Virus record (IMG/VR): IMGVR_UViG_3300034272_001932 | Location: 1-33,982 of that record | Length of the DNA: 33,982 nt | Source: a virus | Direction: 5' to 3' (one strand) | In this document: positions 1-29,395 of the stretch, one piece after another | Position numbering within the stretch: the stretch's first letter is position 1 | Layout of the letters: each line of letters starts with the position of its first letter | Translations under genes and position numbers: made by a program | Notes under the pieces: model-generated | What the model was told of the DNA's origin: nothing | The model's database searches: none | Seen by the model: only the letters and a program-made list of their open reading frames with translations

Positions 1-398
1 CTGTTAATGTCTGGGAAAACTACTGTAATTACTTTTGGGTGTGAAAAATGTTTTAGGTATGCAAAAATATTTTTTACTATTAGATGTATAGATGCTCCCA
101 GAATAGACAAATTATCATAATCTTTTTTCATACTATTTGACAACATATTTCCCCAAGTTCCATCTATTGGAACCCCTATACCAACAGTATTAGAACATCC
201 AGATACTAGAAGCTCTGAATTACCAAACTCTTTAGACCTATATCCTAAAGAATTATATTTATACTCAGTATTTAAGTCTAACTCAACTATCTTATTGTTT
301 CTAATGGTTTCTAGACCCATCCTTGACTCTACCAAAGGCCTTAAAATATTGTTCTGGCCAATTAGAGATAATTTTTCATAATCAAGATCTAGAATCAT
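1..398 (-). CDS. SGNH/GDSL hydrolase-like protein, 3' end cut by window edge
   Basis: Open from an ATG at 398 to the window edge, about 132 codons visible. The stretch NSLGYRS (residues 49-55) followed by SGCSNTVGIG (66-75) looks like SGNH-hydrolase block I, with Ser69 as the candidate nucleophile; the downstream Gly/Asn/His blocks lie outside the window. SGNH enzymes are esterases or lipases, and many phage and cell-wall members remove or add O-acyl groups on glycans. The ATG overlaps the stop of the GT60-like gene by 4 nt (ATGA), so it is translationally coupled to it. I infer a role in the same glycan or virion modification cassette. Family call is moderate because only block I is visible. 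Confidence 0.6.
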   Translation of the reverse strand, partial: MILDLDYEKLSLIGQNNILRPLVESRMGLETIRNNKIVELDLNTEYKYNSLGYRSKEFGNSELLVSGCSNTVGIGVPIDGTWGNMLSNSMKKDYDNLSILGASIHLIVKNIFAYLKHFSHPKVITVVFPDIN

Positions 399-1399
399 GT
401 TTCTATTATTGGTTGGTCTTTAAGATGCTTGCAGTGTTGATATTTGTCAATTTTATCATAATCAGGATTGTACTCTGTAGCTTTTATATTTAATCCAGTA
501 GCATCACAATATTTTAATATTTTATTTTTTTCAATGCCAAACTTATCTTCTAATTTTCCAGAAAGAAGCAAATTAAGTTTAATCATAGAACTGTCTGAAT
601 GGTTCCAATAATCAATTTTATTTTTATCTACCCATGGCCTATGCGTTTCAAATCTAGGCTTATCTTCTCCAGGATATTGCTTAAAGGTATCGTGATAATA
701 CAAGACCACTGGGGTGGCATAAAACCTCCATCCACGACACCAGGCTTGTATAGACATATATGGCTCTTCTGCATTAAAGTTAATATCTGGGTCTATTGGA
801 ACTTCTTTTAAAAAGTTTTTATTGGCAAAGCACCAGGTGTAATGTAGCCAGACACCTTCTCGAACATCTTTGTCGTTTGGACTTTCTGGTATTACCCAAC
901 CTCTAGGGAAATGATATCCTGGAGTAAAGTCTTCTAAATAGTGCTTAACATATACATTTGTGTTTTTTGCATCTTCTGGTGCGTACTCAATTGAACCATC
1001 ATTATTAAATCTATAGTCTGGACCACAATATGTTAAAACAACATTATCTGATTCATTTTTAATAATTGCTTTTTGATATTCTTGTAAACATAACTCATCC
1101 CAATTTTCTACAAATCTAGTGTGAGCACAAATAAAAAGAATATAGTCATATTCAAAATGAGTTTCTGTAGTTTTATTTCTTGCCCATAATATTCCACGAT
1201 ATTCTGAAAGATCATACTTTCTATAAAGAATTTGATTGTCTGGGACAAAATTCAGATTGGAATAGTTTTCTGGATGATCTTCTTCTACAATAGAAAAATA
1301 AATGTTTTCTTTATTTTTTGCTTTTGAATAGCAATCAAAAATTGTACCAAACAAATCTTTTTCTTTATATGCAATAACAGAGATCAATATTTTTGACAT
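395..1399 (-). CDS. GT60-like glycosyltransferase (Skp1-hydroxyproline GlcNAc-transferase family)
   Basis: 334 aa. It begins SKILISVIAYKEKDLFGTI, the typical start of the GlcNAc family (Pfam GlcNAc, CAZy GT60), whose best known member adds GlcNAc to a hydroxyproline of Dictyostelium Skp1. Further family landmarks are EYRGILWAR (67-74), ICAHTRFVENWD (90-101), the acidic pair NAEEPYMS (199-206) and a late YYHDTF (His226). Where the family usually has Asp-Ser-His before the RF..WD block, this protein has Cys-Ala-His (91-93), so a metal or sugar-nucleotide ligand may be altered. Start overlaps the previous stop by 1 nt (TAATG). It follows five oxygenase genes in the same cassette, which suggests it acts on hydroxylated protein. 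Fold assignment is fairly sure; substrate is inferred. Confidence 0.72.
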   Translation of the reverse strand: MSKILISVIAYKEKDLFGTIFDCYSKAKNKENIYFSIVEEDHPENYSNLNFVPDNQILYRKYDLSEYRGILWARNKTTETHFEYDYILFICAHTRFVENWDELCLQEYQKAIIKNESDNVVLTYCGPDYRFNNDGSIEYAPEDAKNTNVYVKHYLEDFTPGYHFPRGWVIPESPNDKDVREGVWLHYTWCFANKNFLKEVPIDPDINFNAEEPYMSIQAWCRGWRFYATPVVLYYHDTFKQYPGEDKPRFETHRPWVDKNKIDYWNHSDSSMIKLNLLLSGKLEDKFGIEKNKILKYCDATGLNIKATEYNPDYDKIDKYQHCKHLKDQPIIET

Positions 1400-1971
1400 T
1401 ACTGCTCTTTATCATAAAATATTGAAATTGCTGCTCTTGGGTCTGGACAATAAACTGTATGTGCAATACCAGAAGGAACAAACAAAACATCTCCTGGCTT
1501 TACCCACAATGATTGATATGGCAATGTGTGATCATCTTTATCATATATTCTCCACTCTACAGTTCCTATTGCTTGCCACAAAAAGGAATCTCTTATGTCC
1601 GTGTGAATTGGAATAGTTTTTTGATTACCTATAAAGTTAATCAGGGTACACCCTCCGTTTGGCATTCTCCCATAGAGAGATGCTGTTTTTTCAAATATAT
1701 CTTGTAGCTGATGAAAAAAGTTACCTTCATTTACATAATAACCAGCAACAAAAAAATCATCCCAGACCTGTAGGGCGTTTATAATTTTAACTGGGCTATC
1801 TAGTGTTTTTTCTTTATTTTTTGTAGTAAAGTCTGAGTGTGCAATAAACTCATCCCAACCTGTATTAGAAGGTATCAAACTAGGGATATGAATCAAGTCA
1901 ACTTCTTGCTTGGCTTGCATAATAACTTCGTGATTTATTGAATTAAGATCTTTTGTAATAATTCTATTCAT
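1399..1971 (-). CDS. JmjC/cupin-like Fe(II)/2-oxoglutarate oxygenase (B)
   Basis: 190 aa. The sequence IPIHTDIRDSF (His123, Asp125) gives an HxD iron-binding pair, and KPGDVLFVPSGIAHTVY (158-174, His171) gives the distal His of a double-stranded beta-helix, the arrangement of JmjC-like/cupin hydroxylases. The final strand is DPRAAISIFYD. It resembles its upstream neighbour (His132/Glu134/His174) in order and spacing of motifs, so the two look like diverged tandem paralogues. Starts inside the stop region of that neighbour (8-nt overlap) and is followed by the GT60-like gene with a TAATG junction. Proteins of this fold hydroxylate protein side chains or small molecules; the substrate is not evident. 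Could be a non-catalytic cupin. Confidence 0.62.
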   Translation of the reverse strand: MNRIITKDLNSINHEVIMQAKQEVDLIHIPSLIPSNTGWDEFIAHSDFTTKNKEKTLDSPVKIINALQVWDDFFVAGYYVNEGNFFHQLQDIFEKTASLYGRMPNGGCTLINFIGNQKTIPIHTDIRDSFLWQAIGTVEWRIYDKDDHTLPYQSLWVKPGDVLFVPSGIAHTVYCPDPRAAISIFYDKEQ

Positions 1972-2545
1972 TTAAAATCACCAAATTTATAACTGCCCTT
2001 GGAGCCTCTAAAGTTTCTATCTCATGCTGAATTCCTCTTGGAATAAAAATAAAATCACCTGGCTCAATAATATCTTCATACTCTAGATTATCACCAGTTC
2101 TCCAGATAGACTTTCCATGACACTGCCACTGAAGTTGATCAATTTCATCATGATGCTTGTTTCCAACTTGCCCACGATTTTTTACCAGACTAACCAGTGC
2201 GAATGAGTTTGCATATCTCTGTCCGTAGTTTTCTTTTGCCCACTCAACAAGAGGTACTAACTCTTTTATATTATCTTCTAGTAAATCTTCTTTATCAAAA
2301 AGCTGAAAGGTTAGTCTTGACCAAAATCTGCAACGTAGCTGAAAGCTTAAATAAGGCTCATCCAAATTGTTTCTATCTAGATATTCTTTGCTTGGAAAAT
2401 CGATAGTATCTTTAGAAGCAAACCTGCTAAGTATTTTAATAAAAGAGTCCCATTGCGGAAGATCTGGAAAAGGATTCTTGAAGATGTGAATTCTTTTATT
2501 GTCGATTGCTTGCTGAATCAATGTCATATCTATTGCTGTACTCAT
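1964..2545 (-). CDS. JmjC/cupin-like Fe(II)/2-oxoglutarate oxygenase (A)
   Basis: 193 aa from ATG 2545 (MSTAIDMTLIQQ). I reject the longer open frame back to 2779 because it would lie over 200 nt inside the preceding prolyl hydroxylase gene, whereas ATG 2545 starts 7 nt after that gene's stop. The metal site candidates are NKHHDEIDQLQW (His131/132 with Asp133/Glu134) and EPGDFIFIPRGIQHEI (161-176, His174), the usual JmjC/cupin pattern with a final APRAVINLVI strand. The Trp and Cys of LQWQCHGKSIW lie between the ligands, as in JmjC-like asparaginyl and lysyl hydroxylases. The upstream half is less recognisable. Likely a protein or peptide hydroxylase acting with the neighbouring oxygenases; substrate unknown. 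Confidence 0.62.
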   Translation of the reverse strand: MSTAIDMTLIQQAIDNKRIHIFKNPFPDLPQWDSFIKILSRFASKDTIDFPSKEYLDRNNLDEPYLSFQLRCRFWSRLTFQLFDKEDLLEDNIKELVPLVEWAKENYGQRYANSFALVSLVKNRGQVGNKHHDEIDQLQWQCHGKSIWRTGDNLEYEDIIEPGDFIFIPRGIQHEIETLEAPRAVINLVILNE

Positions 2546-2552
2546 AGCTTTA

Positions 2553-3326
2553 TTATACACCAACCCCTGCTGTTGGATTATCATTATATTCTGCTGTAGA
2601 TCCGTCTGATCTAGGAACTCTAATGTCTCCCTGTATTGGATCGTCTGGCATTCTTTTACCCCAATAGCCTGGTGGATACCAGTAAGGTTGCTCTTCATTG
2701 TCCGTTCTTGCTGGTTTAGGATTTTGATTATAAAAACCTTCTTTAGTAACCAAAGACGCAAGGCAGAACCTATCTCCACTAAGTACTTTTTTTACACCAT
2801 GCTTTGTGGTTCCAGAGTGAAAAGCTATAGACCCAGATTTTGGTTTATACCAATAGTTATAGTCTGGGTAATAAATTTCTCCACCCTCATAATCATCGTT
2901 TGGATATACAACGGTACCCCACAAAATTGGTTTCTCCATATGCTCTTGGTTATCAATATGAATAAACATCTCTAGCGTGTCATTAGCACCAAAGTTAATG
3001 GGACTAGAATCACGGTACATTTTAATTAAATTATGAGGAGACGGCTCCCATTTTGCTTCGTGGTCAAACTCATTTAAAACATCTTTAGTTCTTTGAATTA
3101 TGTCTGCAAGTAAATCTTTTATTGGGTCTAGTACATTTTCATATCCAGGAATTTTTTTCATATCATGATCATTAATTAATCTTTTGCCCCAAAATTTAAA
3201 ACTGTGTTCTGGCAAATTTTCATAGTCAAAGTTTTTCATAAAACTAGAAATCATCTTAGATTCCTCTGATGACAAGAAGTCTTCGTATATTACAACATTT
3301 CCATCACATTCAACTATTTTTTTCAT
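2553..3326 (-). CDS. Prolyl 4-hydroxylase-like 2OG-Fe(II) oxygenase with C-terminal extension
   Basis: 257 aa. It carries the full P4H signature: FIHIDN (His123, Asp125), GGEIYYP (148-154), PKSGSIAFHSG (162-172), distal TTKHGVKKV (His176) and Arg186 in SGDRFCLASL as the 2-oxoglutarate carboxylate ligand. Prolyl 4-hydroxylases convert peptidyl proline to 4-hydroxyproline using Fe(II), O2 and 2-oxoglutarate. After the catalytic core (ending near residue 195) there is an extension of about 60 residues rich in Pro, Gly and Asp (PYWYPPGYWGKRMPDDP and beyond), not part of the usual domain; it could bind a partner or be a substrate itself. A clear AAGGAGAG ribosome site precedes ATG 3326. The paralogue at 4632-5192 shares the GG..YYP..N.....PK.GS block. 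Confidence 0.8.
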   Translation of the reverse strand: MKKIVECDGNVVIYEDFLSSEESKMISSFMKNFDYENLPEHSFKFWGKRLINDHDMKKIPGYENVLDPIKDLLADIIQRTKDVLNEFDHEAKWEPSPHNLIKMYRDSSPINFGANDTLEMFIHIDNQEHMEKPILWGTVVYPNDDYEGGEIYYPDYNYWYKPKSGSIAFHSGTTKHGVKKVLSGDRFCLASLVTKEGFYNQNPKPARTDNEEQPYWYPPGYWGKRMPDDPIQGDIRVPRSDGSTAEYNDNPTAGVGV

Positions 3327-3353
3327 AACTCTCCTTTTATACTTATTATACTA

Positions 3354-3899
3354 TTAGGCATTTCTTTCCCTTGCATTTTGATATCTAATCTCATCGTGTT
3401 TTTCTTTGGGTTCTGTTAAAAACCAATGATCTGGCTCAATATAAAAGAAAAAAACATTACAGACAATATTGTCTTTTCCTTCTGGAAAATCTTCTCTCCA
3501 ATGCTTTTGTCCTTCCCCATAATATAGAAGTGCTTCGTTTTCTTGCAGAGTATAGGGAATTCCCTCAACATATAGATCCCAAGGTACTGTCTGATATACA
3601 CAAAGATCTATGCTATACGTACAGGGAGCAACGTCTCTATGCTTTTCTAATGAGGCCTTTCCATAGTACCAGGATCCAAAATTAAATGAGGGAACTATGC
3701 TGTCCCTTTCAAAAAAATTTTTAGCTACTGGGGTTAATTTTTTATGCAGTAAGTCTAATATCTCAGAGCCGCCAAACTCGTATCTATTAAATTGATCGGA
3801 ATGTCCAAGTATAGACTTATCAAGCCCTTTAACATAATCTTGCAATTCTTTAAAGTCTTCTGGATCTAAGAAGTTTTTCATTATCAATGGGGTTTTCAT
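3354..3899 (-). CDS. 2OG-Fe(II) oxygenase, prolyl hydroxylase-like
   Basis: 181 aa. SLEKHRDVAPCTYSIDLCVY supplies the HxD pair (His87, Asp89), followed by a Trp-Asp-Leu strand, ENEALLYYGEGQKHWRED (120-137) with distal His133, and a last strand with NVFFFYIEPDH. This is the beta-helix of a 2-oxoglutarate dioxygenase, but the Gly-Gly-x-x-Tyr-Tyr-Pro block of the two flanking P4H-like proteins is absent and the 2-oxoglutarate Arg is not at the usual His+10. It is therefore a more distant relative, possibly with another substrate. ATG overlaps the DUF6065-like stop by 4 nt (ATGA), so the two are coupled. Confidence 0.68.
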   Translation of the reverse strand: MKTPLIMKNFLDPEDFKELQDYVKGLDKSILGHSDQFNRYEFGGSEILDLLHKKLTPVAKNFFERDSIVPSFNFGSWYYGKASLEKHRDVAPCTYSIDLCVYQTVPWDLYVEGIPYTLQENEALLYYGEGQKHWREDFPEGKDNIVCNVFFFYIEPDHWFLTEPKEKHDEIRYQNARERNA

Positions 3900-4651
3900 T
3901 TAGGTACTCTTTTCTGATGATCTTTATATTCTGTTCCGTCAAAGTTTATGCCGTTAAAATATCTACGGCCAGCTTGATGAGGCTTTTCTTTATCTGACGA
4001 ATTTCTTTCATCGCTTAAATTTTTTACTTCTTCAACCTCATTAATATGTAGCTCTTGATCAAAAATATCTGATATTAATTTAGTATCAAAATTATCAACA
4101 AAGTATCTTGGTATCGGGATAAAAGCTCCAAGAGGGTCTCCCTTTTTAACAGATATCTTTAAATTAGGAACTGTAACTTTAAAATTAAAAGTAAAGTCAC
4201 GCCTAATTTGATCTGTCTCAATAACTCCAGTCATAGAAACACATCCTGGAATAAACATATTCGGCGGTTGTATTGTCATTAAATTTATTCCTGGCGAAGT
4301 TTTTAAAGCAAAGGCGTTCTGTACGGTTACAATTCCACTTCCAAATCCAGTTTTTATTGACTGTTTATCAGAATTTTCTTCATTTAAAAAAATAATTTCT
4401 GGATTTGCTTCTGTTCCATCCCAAATTATTTCAAAATCTCTCAAAGACTCTATAACAAACCCGTACTGATTTCCAATTATTAATGGCAAACAATAGTAAA
4501 AATGAGAATTAAACCATTCTCTTTTAGAATTTCCTTTAAGTGGTTTTAATACTTCTTTATAAAAACCGTCATGCTCAATTCTATGAGGAACTACCAAAAT
4601 TGTATTTTTTGGAACCTCGTATCCTTCGTCATTAATATATGGACCAGTCAT
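3896..4651 (-). CDS. DUF6065-like protein within the oxygenase cassette
   Basis: 251 aa, function unknown. The pattern FNSHFYYCLPLIIGNQYGFVI (residues about 48-68, with Cys54 and Pro56), then FEIIWDG (73-79), a central TGFGSGIVT and PPNMFIPG, and KKGDPLGAFIPIPRY resembles a family I remember as DUF6065; I could not check this. It contains no HxD motif of the oxygenase type. The start is supported by AAGGAAAG 5 nt upstream of ATG 4651, inside the end of the preceding P4H gene (20-nt overlap). Position between hydroxylase genes suggests a substrate-binding partner or a further modifying enzyme. The C-terminal 50 residues are charged and probably disordered. Confidence 0.55.
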   Translation of the reverse strand: MTGPYINDEGYEVPKNTILVVPHRIEHDGFYKEVLKPLKGNSKREWFNSHFYYCLPLIIGNQYGFVIESLRDFEIIWDGTEANPEIIFLNEENSDKQSIKTGFGSGIVTVQNAFALKTSPGINLMTIQPPNMFIPGCVSMTGVIETDQIRRDFTFNFKVTVPNLKISVKKGDPLGAFIPIPRYFVDNFDTKLISDIFDQELHINEVEEVKNLSDERNSSDKEKPHQAGRRYFNGINFDGTEYKDHQKRVPK

Positions 4652-5192
4652 AACTTCTTTCCTTATTTTTTGTCCAGAAGGACGCTATCGTGTACCTTAC
4701 TTCATCTTCAACTCTTGTTACTCCATGAAGATGCTCTGAATCTCCTGGGTGAATTGCTAAAGAACCTGTTTTTGGAACCACCTCAAAATTAAAGTTTGGG
4801 TAGTAAGTGTGACCACCAGAATAAGAATCGTTTAGATATATAACAGATCCAAACGATCTATGGTCAAATCCTAGTATGTCTGTGTTGCTCATGTCGTCCG
4901 CATGAGGAGGCTGTTCTGTGCCAGGAAACCATCTTACTATTTGAATAGTATCAGAATAAACCTCTTCTATATCAAACAATTCTTTAATTCGTTGTCCACA
5001 ACGAATATTTGCATCCAACATAATAACTGCAGCATTTCTATCATACTTTCCAATATTATCATAATTTATTACACGATTATCCCAAAATTCGTGACCAGCT
5101 GATTGCCATAAATTAGACTCCACTGCTACATTAATTAAATACTCGCAATCTTCTTTAGATACAAAACCTTCTAGAATTTTTGCATTAAACAT
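4632..5192 (-). CDS. Prolyl 4-hydroxylase-like 2OG-Fe(II) oxygenase
   Basis: 186 aa, about the size of a minimal P4H catalytic domain. Motifs in order: QPPHADDM (His97, Asp99), SVIYLNDSYSGGHTYYPNFN (116-135), PKTGSLAIHPGDSEH (140-154), distal HGVTRV (His156) and Arg166 in DEVRYTIASFW. All three iron ligands and the 2-oxoglutarate Arg are present, so it should be active. These enzymes hydroxylate proline in peptides; bacterial, algal and viral members accept collagen-like or proline-rich substrates. It begins 8 nt inside the Zn-binding protein gene. It lies about 700 nt downstream, in the direction of transcription, of the PASTA/polyproline virion gene, an obvious candidate substrate. Confidence 0.8.
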   Translation of the reverse strand: MFNAKILEGFVSKEDCEYLINVAVESNLWQSAGHEFWDNRVINYDNIGKYDRNAAVIMLDANIRCGQRIKELFDIEEVYSDTIQIVRWFPGTEQPPHADDMSNTDILGFDHRSFGSVIYLNDSYSGGHTYYPNFNFEVVPKTGSLAIHPGDSEHLHGVTRVEDEVRYTIASFWTKNKERSYDWSIY

Positions 5193-5436
5193 TTACATCA
5201 TTGTCTTTCCATTTATTTAAAGGGCATGTTGCATTTTTTAATTTTGTTTTTGCAGACATAAAACATCCACATTTCTTACATTGATTGGTAATCTGAATTA
5301 GTTCTGGGCAACCCTTACATATATCCATTCTAGACTTGGCAACATCTTGATCTGCCATCTCTGTTGTTGGATCTAACATATGCCAGGGCCTACTTTCCCC
5401 TAAGTTTTTTTTATACTGTTGCCAAGCTGAAGTCAT
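5185..5436 (-). CDS. Small four-to-five-Cys zinc-binding protein
   Basis: 83 aa. A C-x2-C pair at ICKGCPEL is followed by QCKKCGCFM and a final ATCPLNKW, giving six cysteines in a compact treble-clef or ribbon arrangement likely to bind one or two Zn ions. Short proteins with this pattern (reminiscent of DUF6171) are common next to phage tail genes, but their role is unknown. It is the first gene of the modification cassette: the next gene (P4H-like) starts 8 nt before its stop. It may be a chaperone or adaptor for the oxygenases; that is inference only. Confidence 0.6.
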   Translation of the reverse strand: MTSAWQQYKKNLGESRPWHMLDPTTEMADQDVAKSRMDICKGCPELIQITNQCKKCGCFMSAKTKLKNATCPLNKWKDNDVNV

Positions 5437-5450
5437 TAGACTAGCCCTTT

Positions 5451-5885
5451 CTATGCTGGATTAAAGTTTTGACCGTCCCAGGTCCATCCAGGCAAAACTG
5501 TGACTGAACTATCTACTGGAATTGATATTGGATTAGACTGCATTGCTGCGTCTATCATCTCTATTTCTTGCTGAGAATATGCTTCGAGATCATATGTTAC
5601 GGTTCCAAATACATCTCCGTCTACAATTGCAGCATACTTTACTGCTCCGCCTAAATTATCTGTATCGGATGGAACCAATGCATTTTCTTTTAGATCGTCT
5701 CCAGGAAGAAAGAAGTTTTGTCCATCCCAGTAAGATCCAGCACAAACATCTGGAACAAGGTTTACCTTTATAAAGGTTGGATCTGAGCTCATTCCAGCAA
5801 TCCATCTAGCAGACATTTCTAAATTTGGTGTAAACTCAAGAACATCAAATACGTCGTTTTCTACGACCATAGCAAACTTACTCAT
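5451..5885 (-). CDS. Tail-associated protein with duplicated 'W-D-G-Q-N-F' module
   Basis: 144 aa made of two similar halves. Each begins with a short strand run (KFAMVVENDVFDVLEF and KYAAIVDGDVFGTVTY) and ends with a Trp-rich turn (GSYWDGQNFFLP near 50-61 and PGWTWDGQNFNP at the end). A single copy of the same module forms most of the 96-aa protein at 10023-10313 (PYWTYEDGEFKMP). Such small modules occur in phage tail-fibre chaperone or attachment proteins. It lies after the PASTA protein and before the modification cassette. I see no catalytic motif. Probably a fibre assembly chaperone or small tail component. Confidence 0.55.
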   Translation of the reverse strand: MSKFAMVVENDVFDVLEFTPNLEMSARWIAGMSSDPTFIKVNLVPDVCAGSYWDGQNFFLPGDDLKENALVPSDTDNLGGAVKYAAIVDGDVFGTVTYDLEAYSQQEIEMIDAAMQSNPISIPVDSSVTVLPGWTWDGQNFNPA

Positions 5886-5936: not shown

Positions 5937-7055
5937 TTAGCATAGTAAGCCTCCGCTGTTTACGCATGCACAGGTGGATGTATATCTTCTAAGTCTTGTA
6001 CATCCTTCTGGACAACATGTACATCCTGAAGATCCGCAAGGTACTATGGTCTCTCCGCAGACTGCTCCTGGAGTACAGCTGGTTGCAATGATAGGTGGGG
6101 TGACCGCAATGATAGGTGGGGTCACGGCGATAATAGGTGGGGTGACCGCAATAATAGGTGGGGTCACGGCGATAATAGGTGGGGTCACGGCGATAATAGG
6201 TGGGGTGACCGCAATGATAGGTGGGGTCACGGCGATAATAGGTGGGGTGACCGCAATGATAGGTGGGGTGACCGCAATAATAGGTGGGGTCACGGCGATA
6301 ATAGGTGGGGTGACCGCAATGATAGGTGGTGGAGGTGGTGGAGGTGGTGGAGGAGGTGGTGGCGCTGCCTGATACACTGCTTTTGTTAAAGCAATTGTGG
6401 TTGTAAAAGACTGTAATCCTCCACCAACTGGAGTTTGTGCAATTATTCTTCCATTTAATGTTTGATATGAAGGTGTTGAACCTATACTATTTGTTACAGA
6501 TATTGTTGTAAATCCAACAACATTTAGTGCTAGTATAGCTTCAGACTCTGTTTTACTTGTCACATCTGGCAAAATTCCCTCTGTCGCTGGAATATAATTT
6601 CCAGCAACTATAGTTACTGTTGCTCCAGGAGCAAGCTGTACTGGTGGTTCTGGTGACTGTCCAATAATAATATCTTGCTTTGTAGGGTCTGGAGTTGAAG
6701 CGGTAACAAGATTGTAAGTAAGTAGTGATGATGTAATTGTAGCTATTGCTGAATTTTTTGTTTGTCCAACAACATATGGGGTTGTTACCGCAGATAAAGT
6801 TCTTACTGTATATTCAATTTTAGTTTTAAATCTAATTCTTTTGCCAGCAGGAACTGCTTGTGCAATAACAACTCCGCCTGTTCCAGAAGTATCTACAAAG
6901 TACTTCTCGTCTGCTCTGAGTCCTTGACCATCTAACTCTATTTGTGCAACGACATTATTTAAACCAATGAGGTTAGGTACAATTACACGGGCATATGGAA
7001 CGTTTAAATGTTCTACTTGCTGATTTTTATCCTTGGGAAAAGACTGAACGGCCAA
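5937..7055 (-). CDS. PASTA-domain virion protein with polyproline, PPIIAVT repeats and Cys-rich tail
   Basis: 372 aa. Three PASTA-like domains (about 25-84, 90-152, 160-225; each with a VP..G or DV..K..SEA.. start and an ..Q.P..G turn) are followed by about 13 consecutive prolines, twelve units of Pro-Pro-Ile-Ile-Ala-Val-Thr, and a C-terminal segment with ten cysteines. PASTA domains bind peptidoglycan or muropeptides in Gram-positive bacteria, so this is a good candidate for a host-wall-contacting tail tip protein. The start is TTG at 7055 with GGGAGA 5 nt upstream. An ATG at 7068 in another frame reads MGDYVGRSVFSQG then stops, so a +1 shift or sequencing error cannot be excluded. The polyproline run should need EF-P for translation and is a plausible substrate for the prolyl hydroxylases nearby. 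Confidence 0.75.
   Translation of the reverse strand: MAVQSFPKDKNQQVEHLNVPYARVIVPNLIGLNNVVAQIELDGQGLRADEKYFVDTSGTGGVVIAQAVPAGKRIRFKTKIEYTVRTLSAVTTPYVVGQTKNSAIATITSSLLTYNLVTASTPDPTKQDIIIGQSPEPPVQLAPGATVTIVAGNYIPATEGILPDVTSKTESEAILALNVVGFTTISVTNSIGSTPSYQTLNGRIIAQTPVGGGLQSFTTTIALTKAVYQAAPPPPPPPPPPPPPIIAVTPPIIAVTPPIIAVTPPIIAVTPPIIAVTPPIIAVTPPIIAVTPPIIAVTPPIIAVTPPIIAVTPPIIAVTPPIIATSCTPGAVCGETIVPCGSSGCTCCPEGCTRLRRYTSTCACVNSGGLLC
6085..6363 (-). repeat. Twelve 21-bp coding tandem repeats plus polyproline tract
   Basis: From 6085 to about 6329 a 21-bp unit is repeated twelve times, encoding Pro-Pro-Ile-Ile-Ala-Val-Thr on the minus strand (the last unit lacks Val). Units differ only at synonymous third positions (for example Ala-Val as GCG GTC or GCC GTG; Ile as ATT or ATC). 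It runs directly into a CCA/CCT polyproline tract at 6327-6363. Such in-frame repeats can expand or contract by slippage or recombination without breaking the gene, changing stalk length. Confidence 0.9.
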
Positions 7056-11965: not shown

Positions 11966-12002
11966 TTATCTCACCTCTTGTTAAATTATACCTTAAAATC
12001 CT

Positions 12003-12401
12003 TTAAGAAGGAAGGACTGGCCATTGAAGGTCAGCTCCACTTTTTAGGAGATCTATAGTTATTGTTGATGGAAAATCTCTTAGAGCCTGTCTGTAAGAAG
12101 CCCATTGAGCCTTCTTTTCTTCTGTCATAGGAACTTCAGGATTTACTGTCCAGTCTGACTCTAAAAGCTTTTTATTTCTAGCATCTTTTATCAAAAATAA
12201 TGAAGTTTCTAGAAGTGACTGTCCATTTTCTAAATCTACCTCTTCAGCTGTCATTTCTAAAATTTCACCAGAAACCAATTTGTATCTTTTTCCAGATATA
12301 TCTATATCTGCCATATACCAACCATCTTCTTCTGGGAATACTCCATCAAACCATTTTGCTTCCGCTTGTCTTCCATTGCTATCAAAATTAACGTAGTACA
12401 T
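12003..12401 (-). CDS. Phage tail assembly chaperone-like protein, second copy
   Basis: 132 aa from ATG 12401 (MYYVNFDSNG), whose A overlaps the preceding stop as TAATG; the open frame to 12440 runs into the previous gene and I reject that start. The C-terminal part has RNKKLLESDW, WASYRQALRDF and LQWPVLPS, the same signature as 8150-8584. The N-terminal half has a YYVNF..NG..AEAKW strand pair typical of fibre chaperones. Likely assists the 294-aa protein immediately before it. Confidence 0.65.
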   Translation of the reverse strand: MYYVNFDSNGRQAEAKWFDGVFPEEDGWYMADIDISGKRYKLVSGEILEMTAEEVDLENGQSLLETSLFLIKDARNKKLLESDWTVNPEVPMTEEKKAQWASYRQALRDFPSTITIDLLKSGADLQWPVLPS

Positions 12402-13285
12402 TATGGTCTCTCCCCAAACAGTTCGGCAGTTCTTCTCCAAATTCTATATGAGTTTCTTGAGTTGAACTCATTATTATGGTCGTTATATGTTTCTGCTGCA
12501 AAAGTCATCTTGTGGTCTGGCTGAATCCAAAAATCATTAAATGTTGTATGTAGGTCATAAAACTTATTAATATCAAACCACTTGTAACCTCCAGTTGAGG
12601 TCCAGTAGTACATGCTATTGGCCTGAACTACTGCTACTGTTGTTCTTGCTGGAATAGATACGTTCCATGACCAAGTATACGCAGAGTTTCCGCCAGTTCT
12701 ATTTACTGGAACTGACCATGAAACATCTGAAACGGTTGAATATGAATTGTTAACGTTAGGAGTTCCAATTGCTACTCCAGAACCCTCATATCCTGCTGAC
12801 CACCAATTTGAATAATGACCATACATTGTGCATGACTTAGTTAATGATGGATGATGATTTCTTAAAAACATAATAGTAAATCTCATTGGACCATAAGATG
12901 TATCATTGCTAATTGTATTGGTAGTTCTTTCTCCACCTGCAACGGAGTTTTTAGCATACCTTAGTGTTCCGAGGTCATACGGGTCTACAGATGAGTAGCC
13001 TAAAGTATTTTGTCTATTATTAGTTCCTAGCCCCATCCAAAATGCTCTTTCTGGGTCTGCAGAAGATCCTGCTCCAGTCAAATAATTATGATAGTTGGTC
13101 CATGGGTCGCCCGAGGTCCAGTTATACTGCCATACGTTTCTTCTATTATTCATAGAGGTAATGTATGGTATTGAAAAAGGTCTTCTAGAACCGTCAACAA
13201 CTTCTTTCCATAGTCTATCTTCTGCTTGCTGAATATTAAAAGAAATACCAGACTGATTAGTTTTTAATGTATTTAAATTAGCCAA
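12401..13285 (-). CDS. Trp/Asn/Tyr-rich structural tail protein of unknown family
   Basis: 294 aa, not recognised. Begins LNTLKTNQSGISFNIQQAEDRLWKEV, perhaps helical, then a beta-rich body unusually rich in Trp, Tyr and Asn (WQYNWTSGDPWTNYHNYL, ILFLRNHH-like segments, WSVPVNRTGGNSAYTWSWN). Such composition suits carbohydrate-contacting fibre tips. It abuts the 222-aa fibre protein with no spacer and overlaps its chaperone by 1 nt, so the three probably form one fibre unit. Receptor binding is inferred from context only. Confidence 0.55.
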   Translation of the reverse strand: MANLNTLKTNQSGISFNIQQAEDRLWKEVVDGSRRPFSIPYITSMNNRRNVWQYNWTSGDPWTNYHNYLTGAGSSADPERAFWMGLGTNNRQNTLGYSSVDPYDLGTLRYAKNSVAGGERTTNTISNDTSYGPMRFTIMFLRNHHPSLTKSCTMYGHYSNWWSAGYEGSGVAIGTPNVNNSYSTVSDVSWSVPVNRTGGNSAYTWSWNVSIPARTTVAVVQANSMYYWTSTGGYKWFDINKFYDLHTTFNDFWIQPDHKMTFAAETYNDHNNEFNSRNSYRIWRRTAELFGERP

Positions 13286-13954
13286 TTAGAACACCTTCCA
13301 TCCATAAGTAGAACCACTATAAACCAAAGTTATGTCTCCGCCGTTTACGTTAAACACCAGATTTTCAGCAACACCGTTTATTAAAGATCCGTTTCTTACT
13401 ACTGTAAAGCTTGTTGTTGCTGAAGTTCCAGCTGCATCAACAATCTGAACATTTGATCCAACTGATGGTGTTATTGGAAGTGTTACTGTCTGCCCTGCGC
13501 TTGGAATAATAAGAAGCCTATCCTTATTCGCAATAGTGTATGCACTATCTGTAATAACTTTCCATGTAGAGGGAAGATTAGGGGCAAGTTGGGAGTTGAT
13601 AGTGTTTACTTGAGAAGACAATCCGCTGAAATCGGAAAGACTTGTAGATACAAAGTTTTCTACGTTATCTAATCTTGATTCTTGATCTGCTTGACTTGTT
13701 TCTAGATCTGTAAGCCTATCTCCATTAACAGAAGAGTTAATTGTAGCTATAGCCGCAACTTTAGCTGCTTCTATTGCAGCAATTCTATCAATTGTTGCCT
13801 GAAGAATATCATTAACACCTAACGAAGCACCGAGGGCATTTAAAGCTGATGCAAGCAAAACTAGGTCATTTGCATCCATGGTTGTTGAAGTAAGCGCATC
13901 AACCTTGTCTTTAAATAACTCTATCTGATCAGATAGGGTAGTATAGTCTGGCAT
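13286..13954 (-). CDS. Trimeric tail fibre protein with helical stalk
   Basis: 222 aa. Residues 1-65 are the helical attachment domain shared with the 110-aa protein at 11633-11965. Residues 80-125 (DRLTDLETSQADQESRLDNVENFV and beyond) form heptads of a trimeric coiled coil; residues about 130-222 (IANKDRLLIIPSAGQTVTLP, VQIVDAAGTSATTSFTVVRNG, YSGSTYGWKVF) are a beta-rich tip domain frequently seen at phage fibre ends. The 12-nt spacing from the 1165-aa gene and tight packing suggest co-translation as a fibre subunit. Confidence 0.65.
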   Translation of the reverse strand: MPDYTTLSDQIELFKDKVDALTSTTMDANDLVLLASALNALGASLGVNDILQATIDRIAAIEAAKVAAIATINSSVNGDRLTDLETSQADQESRLDNVENFVSTSLSDFSGLSSQVNTINSQLAPNLPSTWKVITDSAYTIANKDRLLIIPSAGQTVTLPITPSVGSNVQIVDAAGTSATTSFTVVRNGSLINGVAENLVFNVNGGDITLVYSGSTYGWKVF

Positions 13955-13965
13955 TTATTCTCCTT

Positions 13966-16900
13966 TTATGCCTGAGCTTCTGTCCATGTTACACGAGCTG
14001 AAATATTTGCAGCTGCTGTACCAATGTTAGTTGCCACAATTGTAAGAACATCTGGCCCGTTAGGGAAAGATGGGTTTGTCTGAGATCCATTTCCATTAAG
14101 AATTGAGTTACCTAGATCACGAATCTTTTGTGCGTTAAAGTTTGTTACAGAGAATGTTCCACCTGTTGGAGCTTCTGTATAGAAAGCAAATACACGGTCA
14201 CCACCACCAATTGTGTTTGTAGGAGATGTTACTGTTGCTCCCTGTGTACCAGTATTATCGTGGAAGATAACTTGTGCCAGAGAACCAGCACCAACACGAA
14301 CTGTTTCCCATGCTGTAGGTAGTGTAGGTCCGTTCATAGACGCTGGATTTAAAATTCCTTCAATAAGGAACTGTCCAGAAGCCAAAACTCCAATAGAGTC
14401 AAGCTTCAACTGCATTCTATTTGCTAATTCACGTGTACCAAAATTTCTTGCAATACCATTATCTACCGATGGTGCAATTCTTAGCGAAATTAATGGACGT
14501 GGAATTGGTGTTGATCCAAGTGACTGTTGAACAGTACCGTTTGGAATAACAGATGTTTGTGGTTCATCTGGACCAGTATTTGAATAAGTTAATGTGTTTC
14601 CAGATGCTGCAGTTAGTGTAAATACTCCATTGTATGAAGTAGATACTGTTGCAGTTCCAGAAGCAGAGGCAAATGAGACGTTTGGCTGTCCAACTCTGCT
14701 ATACGTAATAGTATTGTTGTTTGGAACTGATGCTACTGTATAGGTTCCATTAAATCTTGAATCCAAACCAGTAATTGTTACTTGATTTCCGACAACTGCG
14801 TCGTGGTCGGACGCCATAAATACTGTAGCGACTCCAGATGTTATTTGTCTACCAGTAATTGTAGAAAGCTGTAGAATACCTGAAATTGTTGCTGAAGATC
14901 CAACCTGCAGACCATGGTTTGTAGATGTGGTCAGAGTAACAATATTTGCCGCTCTTGAACGGTTTGTTACTGTTGCAGAAACTGTACCAGATCCACCAAC
15001 CTGAAGATATCTCTGCATACCAGCAGTGAAGAGGTAGAATGAGTCATCATTAAATCCTCCGTCCATGATTACAGATGAACCCCAGTGGCTCATAACTGGT
15101 GCACAGTTTTGAGAAATAGTTTGAACTGAAACTTGTGCATTTCCAGATCCGCCAGGTATTGAAAGATCTGGAATAAAGTTTACAAGGCTTGATGTTCCTG
15201 TAAGAACGTATGACTGTCCGCCATAAACTAATGTTTGTGGGGCTCTTCTAATTACTGTAATTGGATATGCACGTAATGTAGAGTTATATGCACCAATCTG
15301 TGTATACTCGCAAATTTCAAAATTTGTATTGTCTGAAATTCTTAAGTGTCCTGCTGCTGGCCAACGATCAACATTTTCTACATACAGCAATGTTTGCTGA
15401 GGGAATAGTGTTGAACCACTTACTCCGTCGCCACCTGCAATAAGTCTTGTTGATTCTAGAGGCTCATTAATTGTTTCATATCTCGCTGGAAGGTTACCAG
15501 AACGCATATATGCGGCTGTATTAATATTGTTATTTGAAATCTTATGACCCCAAGCAATATCTCCTTCTGTTGTTCTAAGACCAAATCTAATGTATCCAGC
15601 TCCATACCAAGAATAATCGATATATGTCATCTGCATCTTAGATAGGTCAATCTTGAATCCTGAAGGTCCAGTTCCATCAAATCTGTCTATATTCCATTGA
15701 TCTAGAGGAATTTTTTGAACCTGTGTAATCATATATCTTGCTGATGTGTTTGAAGATCCACGGTATGCTGGAGAAACATACATCTGTGTATCCGAATCAA
15801 TTCCAATAACACGATATGATTGTCCACGAATAACTATATACTGACCTACTACAAGCTGCTTACGGAATCTTGTTCCCTGCCCTATAATTAGATTAGAGTA
15901 TTGTGTACAGGTTAGCTTTCCAAAGAGCTCTTTGTTTGAGAATCTCTTTACTGCATAAAGCTTTGTTCCGTCGTATTCGAAGTAGAATCCATTTTGATCA
16001 TCGTATAGTCCTGCACGTGTAGCTGAGCCCTTCCAACGATATGCTGTAAGGAATGCATTAACTCCACCTGGATATTGATCTAGTCCAGACAGAGTTTGAG
16101 TAAATACTGTTTGAAGTCTAAGCTGTGTGTTATTTATAACTTCATAAACAACATGTACTCCGTTATATGGATTGTATCCAATTGTGTCAATTCCTTCTAA
16201 AAGAACTTCCGCTCCTGGCTGAAGATTATGATCTTGAAGCGTTGTAATGTTAATATAGTTTGATCCAGCTGCTGTAGATGTAGCATAGATATCAGTAATA
16301 TCAAATGTAGGAGTAAACTTTGTACCAGTAGAGAATTGAATTGACTTACCTGACTGATAGCGGAAGTAACGACGAGTTTGACGAATTGTTTGTGTTCCAC
16401 AAACATTGTTTGCTGTTGAAAGGATAACACCTCCGTCAAAAGGTCTGTGGTCCACATAGCCTTCTGGTCTTACGTAAAATCCTAACTGGTCAGTATTAAT
16501 TGGGTTTAATACTAAGTTTGGGGTTTTAAATTGTAATGTGGTTGCTGTTGGAACTTTTGTTACTAGATAGTTTCCGTCAATTGAAGTTGCAGAAGATCCA
16601 GCAAACAATACTGTAACTCCCGCATACAGGCCGTGTGGTCTCTGTGTTTGAATTGTAATTGTTGATCCTCCAGAAGCTACTGAGGCTTCATCGGATACCG
16701 CAGCAAATGCGTTAAACTGTCCTGGAATTCCTCCTGGAATATGTGCATTGTCAAAAATTCCACCACCGTAAATAGTTGTTAGTGTTCCGTCAAGTAGCTC
16801 CCCTACTGGAATAATTCCTTTGGCAACATAGGTAAATACGTTAGCATTTGTAACTTGAATAACAGAAGTTCCGTCAGCAAGTGCGTTTAGCGTTTCTTGA

Positions 16901-17477: not shown

Positions 17478-18041
17478 TTATAGAATAAAGCTTGTTGCTG
17501 ATATTGTTCCAGTAACAGTTGAAAGATTTGCAAGGGTGTTATACTTTGGAAAGTATATACCTAAGTTTAGCAGAATATCTAATTCATATGCAGATACTCT
17601 TCTTTCAATGTCCGCCACAACTATTTCACCCGTTGGGCCTGTAGGTCCCGCTGGTCCCGTAGGGCCTGCTGGCCCAATAATATTATCCGCTAATGTCCAT
17701 GCTGGTGTTGGCAAAGAACTGAAGGTAAATAGGTCGCCAGTTGTTGTATTTAAAAATTGATCTCCAGTAAAGTATCCTGATGTTGATACTGGATTTAATG
17801 ACCCAGTAAAATACTTAGATCCTCTTTCACCTGTTGGACCAATTGGCCCTTGAATTCCTTGTGCACCTGCTGGACCAGCCACACCTTGTGGACCTGCTGG
17901 ACCCGCTGGACCTGCAGAACCTGCTGGACCTGCTGGGCCTTGTGAACCAGCTGGACCTTGTGGACCCGCTGGACCTGTTGGTCCAGGACGTGAACCAGCA
18001 ACGGTAACCCATTGCGTCCCATCATAGCGTTTTAATGACAT
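17478..18041 (-). CDS. Collagen-like (Gly-X-Y) tail protein
   Basis: 187 aa. After an 18-residue N-terminus, residues 20-74 are eighteen uninterrupted Gly-X-Y triplets, mostly Gly-Pro-Ala, Gly-Pro-Gln and Gly-Pro-Thr. A second short block (about 123-138, [16 protein letters not shown]) follows a beta-rich insert, and a helical C-terminus ([16 protein letters not shown]) could act as trimerisation domain. A collagen triple helix needs trimers, as in phage fibres. Proline is almost always in the X position; only one X-Pro-Gly (residues 18-20) fits the canonical animal collagen hydroxylase site. It is still a natural candidate client of the P4H-like enzymes encoded downstream. Confidence 0.8.
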
Positions 18042-25756: not shown

Positions 25757-27691
25757 TTAGGAGCCAATATCTACTACTTCACAACCAGCATCTGATGAAC
25801 AAGCCAGTGATTGGCTTCCAGAAGTTCCATCTTCTGTCTCATACATTGTAAGCATTTCCCAGTAGATTTTTTCTGGCATCTTGGAAAGAGCTTCTTCATA
25901 CTCTTCCTTTGTTGCATCTTGGTATGGTGCTTGCTTATATGTATGATCTGAGTATGGAAGGAATGAAATTCCAGAAACTTCATCAAAATGCTCCCAAACC
26001 CAAGCACCTACTTCCATCCACTCTTCATCTCTTACTGAAACTGTGATAGAAGGCTTATGCTCACACCATGCTCTCTGATAAACAAGCCAAGTATTGAGGT
26101 GTTCAATAGCTGTTAGGTCATTTCTAAGAATTGCTCCTTCTGGAGCTTTTACTGGAAATGAAAATACCTTAGTTTGTGTAGGATTCATAAAGTCATCTTC
26201 TGCAGGAACTCCAGCCTCCATTAAAAATTGCGTTAGAGGATCTTTCTTGTCTCCACGAACTGTACGAATGTAGTAATCGTTATGCCATGGATGCATTCCA
26301 GAAGATACTCCAGTTAATTGAGACACTGTTCCAGAAGGCTTAACGCATGTAATCGCTGCAGAGTGTTGAATACCAATCTTTTCTGCCTCATCATAGTTTG
26401 TCATAACTGCAGTCATTCTAAGGTCATTTAGAACTTGCTCAAGTTTATCTAGACCTTGCTTTCCACTCATCATCTCATGACCAAACTGACCAGTGATAGA
26501 AACTCCTAGCAGTCTTTCTTCTTCAGTGTTCTCTTTCCAAATCTTTCTTAGGTACTTAAAGTTAGTAAGTGTTGATTGCCATGTTCCAAGAATTGTTGCT
26601 AGTTCTACTTTTCTCTTTAGGGTTTCTTCATTATCTTCTGGACGAACAATTACTTCTGAAAGATTACAGAATTGGTATGGACGTAAAATAATTTCAGAAC
26701 ATGGATTAGTTCCATAACGAATTGTCTCATCACGACGACCATATTTTGCTGCCTGCTTTTGTGCAGCCTTTATGTTGTAGATTCCACGCTCACCAGACTT
26801 TGAGTCGTAAAGATTCTTCCACTCTGTAATAAAGTCTGACATTGAAGGACGATCAGTATAAGCAACTGAGTTATTTGCTAGTGCACGATGACCTGTTGCT
26901 TCCCACCATGCTCCAGCTTTTGCTTTTGCCATATCTGTGTCACGCAGATCTGATAGTGAAATCAAAGCAGAACGACGAACGCCTCCTACTACAACTACTT
27001 CTCCGATCTTACACATAATGTCGTGTGCTTCAATTGAGTTTAATCTACGACCTGCTGCATGCTTTACTGTTGAAACGCAAAACTCAAAAAGATTAACAAG
27101 TGGTTCTGGACCTGAAGCACGTCCACCGAATGTCTTAAGACGTGCACCCGCAGGGCGGACATTAGAAACATCCCATGTAGGAATCTGTCCTTGCCACAAC
27201 AATGCAAGAAGTTCTCTTAGTGATTTTGCCCAGCCAGCTTTTGAATCTTCAACTACAATAACAGTGTTTGACTTTTCAAAATGCTCGTTAACTGCTGGTA
27301 GCTTATCAACGTAAACTGACTCAACAGAAAAACCAACACCTGTTCCACACATCAAAATGTACATTGCTTCGTCAAAAGAACGTAGTGAGTCTACTGGAAG
27401 AAATGAGCAATTGTATCCAGCAACATTGTCTCTATCCAAAGCTGGGCCAGCGGTCATAACACCACGCATTGATGGCATAACGTTTCTATTAAATATAGAA
27501 TCACGAATTTCAAATACAAGACTTGCTGATGGCTCGTAGTTATAGTTATCTTTAAGGTGCTTGGTCATATAGTTGACATAGCGGTCAACTGTCTCTCCCC
27601 AAGTTTCTCTTCTCCCATTTTCTGGGATCCATCTTGCATATCTGCTTAGTGCAATGAAATTCTCATATGCGTTATCAATTACTTCTGACAT
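25757..27691 (-). CDS. nrdJ: Class II (adenosylcobalamin-dependent) ribonucleoside-triphosphate reductase
   Basis: 644 aa from ATG 27691 (MSEVIDNAYENF), chosen because GGAGGAG lies 9 nt upstream; the in-frame ATG 24 nt earlier lacks such a site. Makes deoxyribonucleotides from ribonucleotides for phage DNA synthesis, using coenzyme B12. Landmarks: AGYNCSFLPVDS (Cys95, first redox Cys), TNPCSEIIL (Asn329, thiyl Cys331, Glu333), QFCNLSEV (Cys342, exactly 11 after the thiyl Cys as in Lactobacillus RTPR C408/C419), VKPSGTVSQLTGVSSG, and C-terminal ACSSDAGCEVV as the reducing Cys pair. Shorter than the 739-aa Lactobacillus enzyme. It stands alone between GT4 and the tail genes, with its own promoter. 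The host must supply or take up B12. Confidence 0.9.
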   Translation of the reverse strand: MSEVIDNAYENFIALSRYARWIPENGRRETWGETVDRYVNYMTKHLKDNYNYEPSASLVFEIRDSIFNRNVMPSMRGVMTAGPALDRDNVAGYNCSFLPVDSLRSFDEAMYILMCGTGVGFSVESVYVDKLPAVNEHFEKSNTVIVVEDSKAGWAKSLRELLALLWQGQIPTWDVSNVRPAGARLKTFGGRASGPEPLVNLFEFCVSTVKHAAGRRLNSIEAHDIMCKIGEVVVVGGVRRSALISLSDLRDTDMAKAKAGAWWEATGHRALANNSVAYTDRPSMSDFITEWKNLYDSKSGERGIYNIKAAQKQAAKYGRRDETIRYGTNPCSEIILRPYQFCNLSEVIVRPEDNEETLKRKVELATILGTWQSTLTNFKYLRKIWKENTEEERLLGVSITGQFGHEMMSGKQGLDKLEQVLNDLRMTAVMTNYDEAEKIGIQHSAAITCVKPSGTVSQLTGVSSGMHPWHNDYYIRTVRGDKKDPLTQFLMEAGVPAEDDFMNPTQTKVFSFPVKAPEGAILRNDLTAIEHLNTWLVYQRAWCEHKPSITVSVRDEEWMEVGAWVWEHFDEVSGISFLPYSDHTYKQAPYQDATKEEYEEALSKMPEKIYWEMLTMYETEDGTSGSQSLACSSDAGCEVVDIGS

Positions 27692-27745
27692 TTCCGAATA
27701 CTCCTCCTGGCCCATCCATGGGCTTAAAATCTGTTAGTAAATACA

Positions 27746-28822: not shown

Positions 28823-29395
28823 ATGTTTACTAAAAACTTAGTAGTAGCTGCCGCAAAGCTAGTGTTCGTTGGTTATTTATTTAGCCAATTTCCGAGCATT
28901 GACTCTACCGCAGTTGCCAATGACATTGTAGCATTATCCGACGTAAAAGTCCAAGATGATGTGAATTACGTATACCTGTCTGATTTCCGTCAGCAGGACA
29001 AGCAATTTTCAGATGAAGACCTGGCCCAACTGCTTTATTGTGTGGGCTTCCGTGGATTAGATCTACGTGAAGCATGGAGCGTTGCTAAGAAGGAGTCAAA
29101 CGGTAGGCCACTTGCTTATAATGGAAATGCAAAAACAGGAGATAGCTCATATGGTATTTTCCAAATCAATATGATTGGAAATTTAGGACCAGAGCGTAGA
29201 GATAAGTTTGAACTAACTTATAATCGAGACCTCCTTGATCCAGTTACAAATGCTGAAGCAGCATTTTTTATGTCTCAGGGTGGAGACAACTGGATATCAT
29301 GGAAGGGTATGACACCTAGAACTAAATCATGGATGGCTCAGTATCCTAAAAACTTTAAGCCACAACCATGCAAGGAGAAGAGAGTAAGTAATTAA
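28823..29395 (+). CDS. Exported lysozyme/lytic transglycosylase-like lysin
   Basis: 190 aa. Residues 5-21 form a hydrophobic N-terminal segment preceded by Lys4 and followed by a small-residue stretch (AVAND), a signal peptide or signal anchor. The catalytic domain has LREAWSVAKKESNGRPLAYN with candidate catalytic Glu91, DSSYGIFQINMIG (107-119) and a terminal MSQGGDNWISWKG; this is the SLT/goose-type lysozyme fold that cleaves peptidoglycan glycan strands. A signal-led lysin can be exported by the host Sec system without a classic holin, and no holin is obvious beside it, though small membrane proteins follow. TAATG overlap with the next gene makes an operon with thyX. Confidence 0.78.
   Translation: MFTKNLVVAAAKLVFVGYLFSQFPSIDSTAVANDIVALSDVKVQDDVNYVYLSDFRQQDKQFSDEDLAQLLYCVGFRGLDLREAWSVAKKESNGRPLAYNGNAKTGDSSYGIFQINMIGNLGPERRDKFELTYNRDLLDPVTNAEAAFFMSQGGDNWISWKGMTPRTKSWMAQYPKNFKPQPCKEKRVSN

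Follow-up and report, generated by a model that had tools for sequence, protein, structure and literature searches.

A gene row behind proline-repeat genes of uncultured phages, predicted to hydroxylate and in some lineages to glycosylate a phage protein

In dozens of fragments of uncultured phages, the gene for a proline-repeat protein is followed by a row of enzyme genes that by their sequences are predicted to hydroxylate proline and, in some of the fragments, to add a sugar. We describe this cassette from the linear IMG/VR record IMGVR_UViG_3300034272_001932, analysed as one stretch of 33,982 bases (the window), and from further viral loci, which are numbered with the prefix L. The order of the genes, the iron ligands of the oxygenases, the protein families, the predicted fold of a transferase and the linkage to the repeat gene point to what is probably a locus with which the phage modifies one of its own proteins. 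The oxygenases, of the Fe(II)/2-oxoglutarate (2OG) type and resembling prolyl 4-hydroxylases (P4H) among others, have a predicted activity that would probably be directed at the proline-repeat protein.

In the window the cassette runs from 5436 to 395 on the minus strand as a DUF6171-like gene, oxygenase A, a DUF6065 gene, oxygenases B and C, a JmjC/cupin-like pair and a transferase gene matching PF11397. It is preceded by the proline-repeat gene and then by a 144-aa open reading frame (ORF), the whole lying in the left fifth of the window. In the order of reading, the features are:

5937-7055, minus strand: proline-repeat protein, the proposed substrate (PASTA, 1.1e-18; the TTG start is the tool's choice)
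6085-6372, minus strand, approximate and by eye: DNA of a Pro13 run and the PPIIAVT repeats (from the sequence and a repeat scan)
5451-5885, minus strand: 144-aa ORF, recurring after the proline gene and ahead of the cassette (relatives in 53 loci)
5185-5436, minus strand: DUF6171-like Cys-rich small protein (PF19668, 2.8e-7; relatives in 77 loci)
4632-5192, minus strand: oxygenase A, prolyl-hydroxylase-like, H97xD99...H156...R166 (PF13640, 4e-7)
3896-4651, minus strand: DUF6065 protein, predicted dUTPase-like fold (PF19541, 1.5e-36; model)
3354-3899, minus strand: oxygenase B, H87xD89...H133xR135 (phrog_2954, 1.9e-15; 20 phage records)
2553-3326, minus strand: oxygenase C, P4H/PKHD-like, H123xD125...H176...R186 (phrog_2297, 1.1e-10)
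1964-2545, minus strand: JmjC/cupin-like oxygenase A (PF08007, 2.3e-5, read from 2698)
1399-1971, minus strand: JmjC/cupin-like oxygenase B, H123xD125...H171...R179 (PF08007, 1.8e-9)
395-1399, minus strand: GT60-type polypeptide N-acetylhexosamine (HexNAc) transferase-like protein, CxH in place of DxH (PF11397, 3.1e-20; polypeptide N-acetylgalactosaminyltransferase (ppGalNAc-T) 2, Z 22.1)
3-398, minus strand: SGNH-like gene, cut at window base 3 (named from motif reading)

Spacings from the DUF6171 gene to the SGNH-like gene are -8, -20, -4, +27, +7, -8, -1 and -4 nt (negative values are overlaps), the +7 presuming that the first JmjC gene starts at the ATG at 2545, which was our choice, the mechanical ORF beginning at a GTG at 2779. 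The coupled row of eight genes described in an earlier note on this DNA is thus found in the same order and with the same couplings (-20 to +27 nt). Beyond the window end the row can be followed on contig L002, 99.94% identical to the window over 6,203 bases, which holds the whole SGNH-like gene (289 aa) and then a carbamoyltransferase gene (PF02543, 4.2e-37). Further upstream in the window, genes match PHROGs for a virion structural protein (8.1e-232) and for baseplate wedge/tail-fibre connector proteins (3e-34 and 1.8e-16), which places the cassette in the tail region. The earlier note had it directly after tail genes that include a PASTA/polyproline and a collagen-like gene. The PASTA/polyproline gene does lie close, with one ORF separating it from the DUF6171 gene, but the collagen-like gene (17478-18041; PF01391, 1.2e-11) is 12 kb off. 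That gene was rejected as a substrate or member of the unit, given its distance and the presence of ORFs with at least 12 Gly-X-Y in some loci only.

The window's proline protein has three PASTA stretches, a run of 13 Pro, the PPIIAVT repeat and a Cys-rich C-terminus with 10 Cys after the tract. Across the cassettes the repeats are of the types PPIIAVT, PPPIIAT, PPVT, PPPVA, PPVV, FPPY/FPPF and TP, besides pure Pro runs of up to 53. With their tracts masked, 23 proline proteins fell into seven blastp clusters at E 1e-3 (10, 5, 3 and 2 members and three singletons, one of which is the window protein), the cluster of 10 being built by single linkage. Judged by these comparisons the proteins appear to be partly related and partly not outside the tract; hence it seems to be the richness in proline that is targeted. 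At least three Cys stand behind the last tract in 21 of the 23, the exceptions being L120 and L158, and L006 likewise is without them by reading. PPIIAVT occurs 11 times in the window and 5 times in L002 (positions 3-911), between near-identical flanks, a difference that may be natural variation of stalk length or an assembly collapse.

In alignments of relatives assigned in the loci of the oxygenase A and transferase scans (71 rows for oxygenase A, 33 for C, 32 for B, 15 and 21 for JmjC-A and JmjC-B, seed included), each of the five oxygenase families retains the iron-binding HxD...H in 96-100% of its rows. The second His has an Arg after it, in oxygenase B just two residues beyond. The sites that had been recognized before, complete HxD...H...R in two of three P4H-like proteins, do exist but undercount a feature retained in all five families. 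In oxygenase A, H97, D99, H156 and R166 are conserved in 96-99% of rows, R166 presumably being the basic residue that binds 2OG. Its profile, made from 42 relatives, matches prolyl 3-hydroxylase 1 (P3H1; 2.4e-14) and P4H (from 8.8e-13, 3itq) in the PDB, followed lower down by the lysyl hydroxylase/glycosyltransferase 6ax6 (3.4e-7), which we take to be mimivirus L230, acting on collagen Lys, and by PHD2 (from 6.7e-5). Peptidyl-prolyl hydroxylases are therefore its nearest solved relatives, and the facial triad and the basic residue are present. Pfam gave nothing for oxygenases B and C at E 1 or below, and their matches in PHROGs carry the names 2OG oxygenase, 'ferrochelatase' or 'DNA endonuclease'; relatives of B are found among cyanophage genes labelled ferrochelatase or 2OG oxygenase. 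We infer that A and C, and probably B, are of the prolyl-hydroxylase type, with a predicted activity.

The linkage between the oxygenases and the proline repeat was examined from the enzyme side by scanning viral contigs with oxygenase A. This gave 77 loci, which together with the window form 35 groups at 90% identity. Neighbours were scored with hidden Markov models that were seeded with the window proteins (phmmer) and extended over the fetched ORFs in three rounds; the same models were used for loci obtained later. The cassette genes recur in similar, shifting orders, usually with DUF6171 first, then A, DUF6065, B, C and the JmjC genes. In 26 groups, window included, the sequence extends 1.2 kb or more ahead of the first cassette gene; in 23 of these the first to third gene upstream is a Pro-rich ORF, with at least 13 Pro in a stretch of 40 aa, on the same strand and no more than 2.5 kb away. 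Such a neighbour was found for 73 of 812 ORF anchors (9%) in 67 control loci without the cassette, which were chosen by GT60 and many of which hold TP repeats. Under a lenient criterion, anywhere in the locus, Pro-rich ORFs are common in these controls as well (29 of 67), and position and strand were therefore used.

From the repeat side, three repeat patterns, PPVT among them, were scanned for in DNA, each giving at least 120 stretches. Taking loci with 3 kb on the examined side, the first in-frame ORF and a range of 5 kb on the same strand, a cassette oxygenase lies downstream of 30 of 53 PPVT-repeat ORFs and upstream of 0 of 48, among the matches listed; where the PPVT pattern falls outside such an ORF, an oxygenase was seen in 3 of 23 loci. 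The 30 loci comprise 8 on contigs shared with the oxygenase A scan and 22 on new contigs. PPIIAVT DNA gave 15 stretches, 14 of them on oxygenase-A contigs and the last (L399) ending inside the repeat gene; the 14 contigs belong to related phages in five of the 35 groups and so do not represent 14 independent events. The link between repeat and cassette is strong, not absolute. The earlier proposal that phage enzymes modify a tail protein is borne out to the extent of a positional and recurrent link from both sides, minus the collagen-like gene, which lies outside the unit.

Several observations weigh against a dedicated proline-protein system. The oxygenase A profile also matches PKHD-type hydroxylases (5.1e-9), which by name are not prolyl hydroxylases, and a single-sequence PDB search with oxygenase C gave nothing significant (best P3H1, E 0.066, and PiuC, 0.61). 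Three oxygenase-A groups have no near Pro-rich ORF (L135, L142 and L133, 5.3 kb away), and the counts are partly non-independent, through related phages, near copies and the single-linkage cluster of 10. GT60-type genes were seen in 18 of 78 loci and 7 of the 35 groups, many contigs being short. No cassette oxygenase lies within 5 kb of 23 of the 53 PPVT ORFs, one of which (L251) has them slightly beyond, and oxygenase A was found in 0 of 23 records behind 22 of these misses and L399, in a search without a positive control on records that may be fragments. ORFs with plain Pro12 or longer, from a (CCN)16 scan, had the cassette in 0 of 12 in-frame loci among the matches listed; plain polyproline was therefore discarded as a predictor, richness alone in any virus being insufficient. 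Finally, in the cyanophages S-SM1 and ACG-2014b the oxygenase genes stand in 16 kb of sequence that holds no Pro-rich ORF.

Part of this evidence would suit a cassette of auxiliary metabolism at a habitual post-tail site, with oxygenases acting on small molecules (or nucleotides, sugars or iron), which we consider unlikely. The PKHD-type matches, the S-SM1 array without a Pro-rich neighbour and the predicted dUTPase-like fold of DUF6065 fit that explanation, and pelagiphage and cyanophage clusters with several 2OG oxygenases, 'ferrochelatase'-labelled partners and oxygenase B relatives have been read as auxiliary metabolic genes, with no protein substrate named in the accessible text (PMC9599517; papers are cited here by PMC number, from those parts of them that were accessible). 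It does not explain why, among the matches listed, the cassette lies downstream of the PPVT repeats on the same strand and never upstream, and partner proteins in seven clusters outside the tract are unexpected under plain hitch-hiking. In the cultured cyanophage S-SM1 (L413, 2119-8372), A-, C- and B-like oxygenase genes stand in a row, and both B-like genes are labelled ferrochelatase; the label may be wrong, because the window's B family keeps HxD...H.

Some cassettes hold further genes, namely GT61-like (PF04577, 3.3e-11), radical S-adenosylmethionine (SAM)/SPASM, UDP-sugar dehydrogenase and nucleotide-sugar epimerase-like ones. The radical SAM/SPASM genes (cassettes c49 and c101), taken with the Cys behind the last tract in 21 of 23 proline proteins, would fit a maturation of the kind known for ribosomally synthesized and post-translationally modified peptides, in which these enzymes and the oxygenases modify the Cys-rich tip instead of the stalk. 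We hold this to be very improbable, as the window cassette showed no radical SAM gene and as the stalk is indicated both by the resemblance to prolyl hydroxylases and by the link with Pro-richness. A defence system was also considered and set aside, PADLOC returning nothing beyond a generic 2OG model (5e-12 and 1.2e-6) and one weak CARF match (7.4e-4). In L005 (151-10915) and L006 (4746-15478), a FPPY/FPPF proline protein is followed by oxygenase B and a CxH transferase, and the run also takes in two DUF6065 genes and nine more oxygenase genes, the final one truncated where the locus ends.

The window transferase matches PF11397 over residues 53-249 with 73.4 bits (3.1e-20; cut-off 21), and the cut-off is also passed by the transferases of L126, L095, L134, L163 and L004; the window transferase was read without its first codon in its own profile searches, as were some other minus-strand genes in one Pfam run. 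Its structural model (predicted local distance difference test, pLDDT, 86) has ppGalNAc-Ts as nearest structures, filling the first 29 rows with Z 22.1 to 18.7 before LARGE1 at 16.8, and so presents a GT-A fold next to GT27. The earlier identification as GT60-like was therefore upheld, by a PF11397 match in place of a profile outside GT60 and by a polypeptide HexNAc-transferase fold. The GT60 motif DxH is, to the detriment of this assignment, absent from the window protein, which has CAH, and from L004 and L163, which have CGH; among the 13 representatives linked to oxygenases, the remaining 10 keep it. We therefore treat the window transferase as GT60-derived by profile and do not file it as a proven member. 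A DxH motif has been named for GT27 and GT60, which are grouped together (PMC7185993).

A scan with the window and XacN1 transferases, of which the best 80 of 117 relatives were used, showed that most are about 416 aa long with DxH (canonical). In a quick tree of 75 of 133 rows at 80% clustering (without L001, L003 and rows below 250 aa or of 90 bits or less), 59 canonical representatives group together with support 83, and none has a cassette oxygenase within 4 kb; GT60 in general was accordingly dropped as a marker of the system. The 13 representatives with an oxygenase within 4 kb are short (289-339 aa), stand in several gene orders and all lie outside the canonical 59, as do L477, L497 and one of L007, which have no oxygenase within that distance. 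The window, L163 and L004 form a clade (Shimodaira-Hasegawa-like approximate likelihood ratio test, SH-aLRT, 100) that adjoins DxH relatives from cassettes (96), and the Asp of DxH was therefore probably lost in the CxH line. The CAH and CGH motifs could mean that the oxygenases hydroxylate the repeat while the window transferase serves some other function or is a pseudoenzyme. This seems to us quite unlikely, because the clade, its rows 48-61% identical to the window's, has kept its full length, the His of the motif, both residues of the Glu pair and the His further on, and because some GT families are known to function metal-free after loss of DxD (PMC7185993). Directly behind the GT60 gene stands a carbamoyltransferase gene in L003 (XacN1, 11989-15706), L062, L075 and L076; L002 has the same arrangement with the SGNH-like gene between.

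Which residue of the repeat would receive the sugar is a separate question, since the GT60 enzyme Gnt1 acts on hydroxyproline (Hyp) of Skp1 and needs the hydroxylase PhyA (PMC6939170), and Ser/Thr glycosylation is also cited for GT60 (PMC7185993). The GT60-type enzyme might glycosylate Thr of the same target, in the manner of the T. cruzi GT60 enzymes, which modify Ser/Thr, with the hydroxylases acting on Pro independently, an alternative that we rate as somewhat unlikely. It draws on the one Thr per unit in the window repeat, PPPIIAT, PPVT and TP, so that Hyp and Thr are both possible acceptors in the window. It draws also on the 29 of 67 cassette-free GT60 loci with a Pro-rich ORF, whose printed tracts are mostly TP and include several near copies. 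Among the matches listed for the TP repeat, GT60 lies within 5 kb in 12 of 86 in-frame loci, a cassette oxygenase in 9 and both in 4, against GT60 in 0 of 13 where the repeat is not in frame. GT60 genes without oxygenases are thus often near Thr-Pro repeats, which counts against Hyp and makes Thr a real rival acceptor; in part of the GT60 family Thr is likely the acceptor. Conversely, GT60-type genes and oxygenases also stand beside Thr-poor tracts in L005 and L006 (0-3% Thr) and in L150 and L157 (5%), a point for Hyp provided that the sugar goes onto the tract, and all 13 oxygenase-linked representatives fall outside the canonical part of the tree. Long Thr-Pro (mucin-like) ORFs were observed in the canonical, cassette-free GT60 loci L044, L052, L063 and L071, which look like a second, Thr-type system.

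In the reading that we favour, the target would be a phage protein with a long proline-repeat stalk and mostly a Cys-rich tip. Oxygenases A and C, probably B and perhaps the JmjC-like pair would hydroxylate the repeat, as their families and the genetic linkage suggest, and in some lineages, the window's included, the polypeptide HexNAc-transferase would then add a sugar to the repeat, most likely on Hyp. The SGNH-like and carbamoyltransferase genes may, more speculatively, decorate that sugar. The outcome would be a stiff stalk bearing sugars, in concept similar to the hydroxyproline-rich glycoproteins of plants. Tentatively, and with rather more doubt than for the locus as such, tailed phages might thus have evolved hydroxyproline-rich glycoproteins of their own, Pro stalks being hydroxylated by arrays of phage prolyl hydroxylases and their Hyp O-glycosylated by GT60-derived enzymes and carbamoyl- or acyl-capped; one GT60-derived subfamily with Cys in the metal site belongs to this same tentative picture.

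Long Pro repeats are a feature of the plant proteins too. These differ in carrying arabinose or arabinogalactan and in belonging to a plant pathway. The P4H of chlorovirus PBCV-1, for its part, takes repeat substrates. In plants P4H acts together with O-glycosylation of Hyp (PMC7960765), and the PBCV-1 enzyme is virus-encoded, active on Pro-containing peptides and present in the virion (PMC7019647). PBCV-1 is, unlike the phages studied here, an algal virus, the accessible text mentions no linked transferase, and Hyp was sought in its virion proteins and not found (PMC7019647), which counts against the reading that we favour. The Skp1 pathway of Toxoplasma and Dictyostelium (PhyA, then Gnt1) resembles the cassette in joining a prolyl hydroxylase to a GT60 GlcNAc-transferase that acts on Hyp (PMC6939170); it differs in serving a single Pro of one protein in the eukaryotic cytoplasm, whereas the phages have an oxygenase array, a proline-repeat neighbour and, in the window, CxH. 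The GT60 of T. cruzi and the mucin-type ppGalNAc-Ts (GT27) share the PF11397 family and the predicted fold with the window transferase, no hydroxylase partner being named for them in the accessible sources; Thr-Pro-rich ORFs near canonical phage GT60 genes are a further likeness to these mucin-type systems, and canonical phage GT60 proteins differ from the window transferase in their greater length and their DxH. Mycobacteriophages have glycans on capsid and tail-tube proteins (Freeman 2023, cited in PMC12619734), a source whose accessible part names neither a hydroxylation step nor proline repeats. Precedents for the individual steps are from eukaryotes or viruses of eukaryotes. Our literature searches, which mostly left aside subscription papers, found no phage precedent for a system of proline hydroxylation and glycosylation, in agreement with the earlier note, whose author knew of none.

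Prolyl hydroxylases have been said to be absent from bacteria and viruses (PMC3368898), which the P4H literature contradicts, and a virus survey of the Baltic Sea lists P4HA among abundant auxiliary genes and calls its viral use cryptic (PMC9301287). A proline-repeat protein as fixed genetic partner makes such use directly testable. If our reading is true, phages would have O2-dependent hydroxylation and Hyp-type glycosylation as additional means of building or masking their tails, and a protein substrate would be assigned to phage 2OG oxygenases that at present count as metabolic genes. A Skp1-like pair of hydroxylase and GT60 in phages would also bear on the origin of the protist pathway.

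The remaining cassette genes were characterized further. DUF6065, present in 62 of the fetched loci and without a tblastn match in phage isolates, gave a predicted structure (pLDDT 88) that resembles dUTPases (Foldseek, 2.4e-4; VIA Z 10.0, 3.8 A over 114 residues at 13% identity); we predict a dUTPase-like fold and claim no dUTPase function. The DUF6171-like gene, though the usual first gene of the cassette, was rejected as a marker by itself, six named phage loci (L408-L410, L412, L414 and L415) having it without a cassette oxygenase; the sole Pro-rich ORF printed for them (at least 8 Pro in 20 aa) is one of 96 aa in L412, kilobases off. The 144-aa ORF had no Pfam match up to E 1. The SGNH-like gene that had been noted is there, cut by the window end, but its name rests on motif reading: the whole protein from L002 matched no Pfam or NCBIfam family (best Pfam NeuB, E 0.09, below the cut-off), and three relatives likewise gave no profile match above the cut-off. 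Elsewhere the same phage encodes a B12-dependent ribonucleotide reductase (25757-27715) and a lysozyme-like protein (28823-29395), both by Pfam, and a ThyX-like protein, by reading only (29585-30280).

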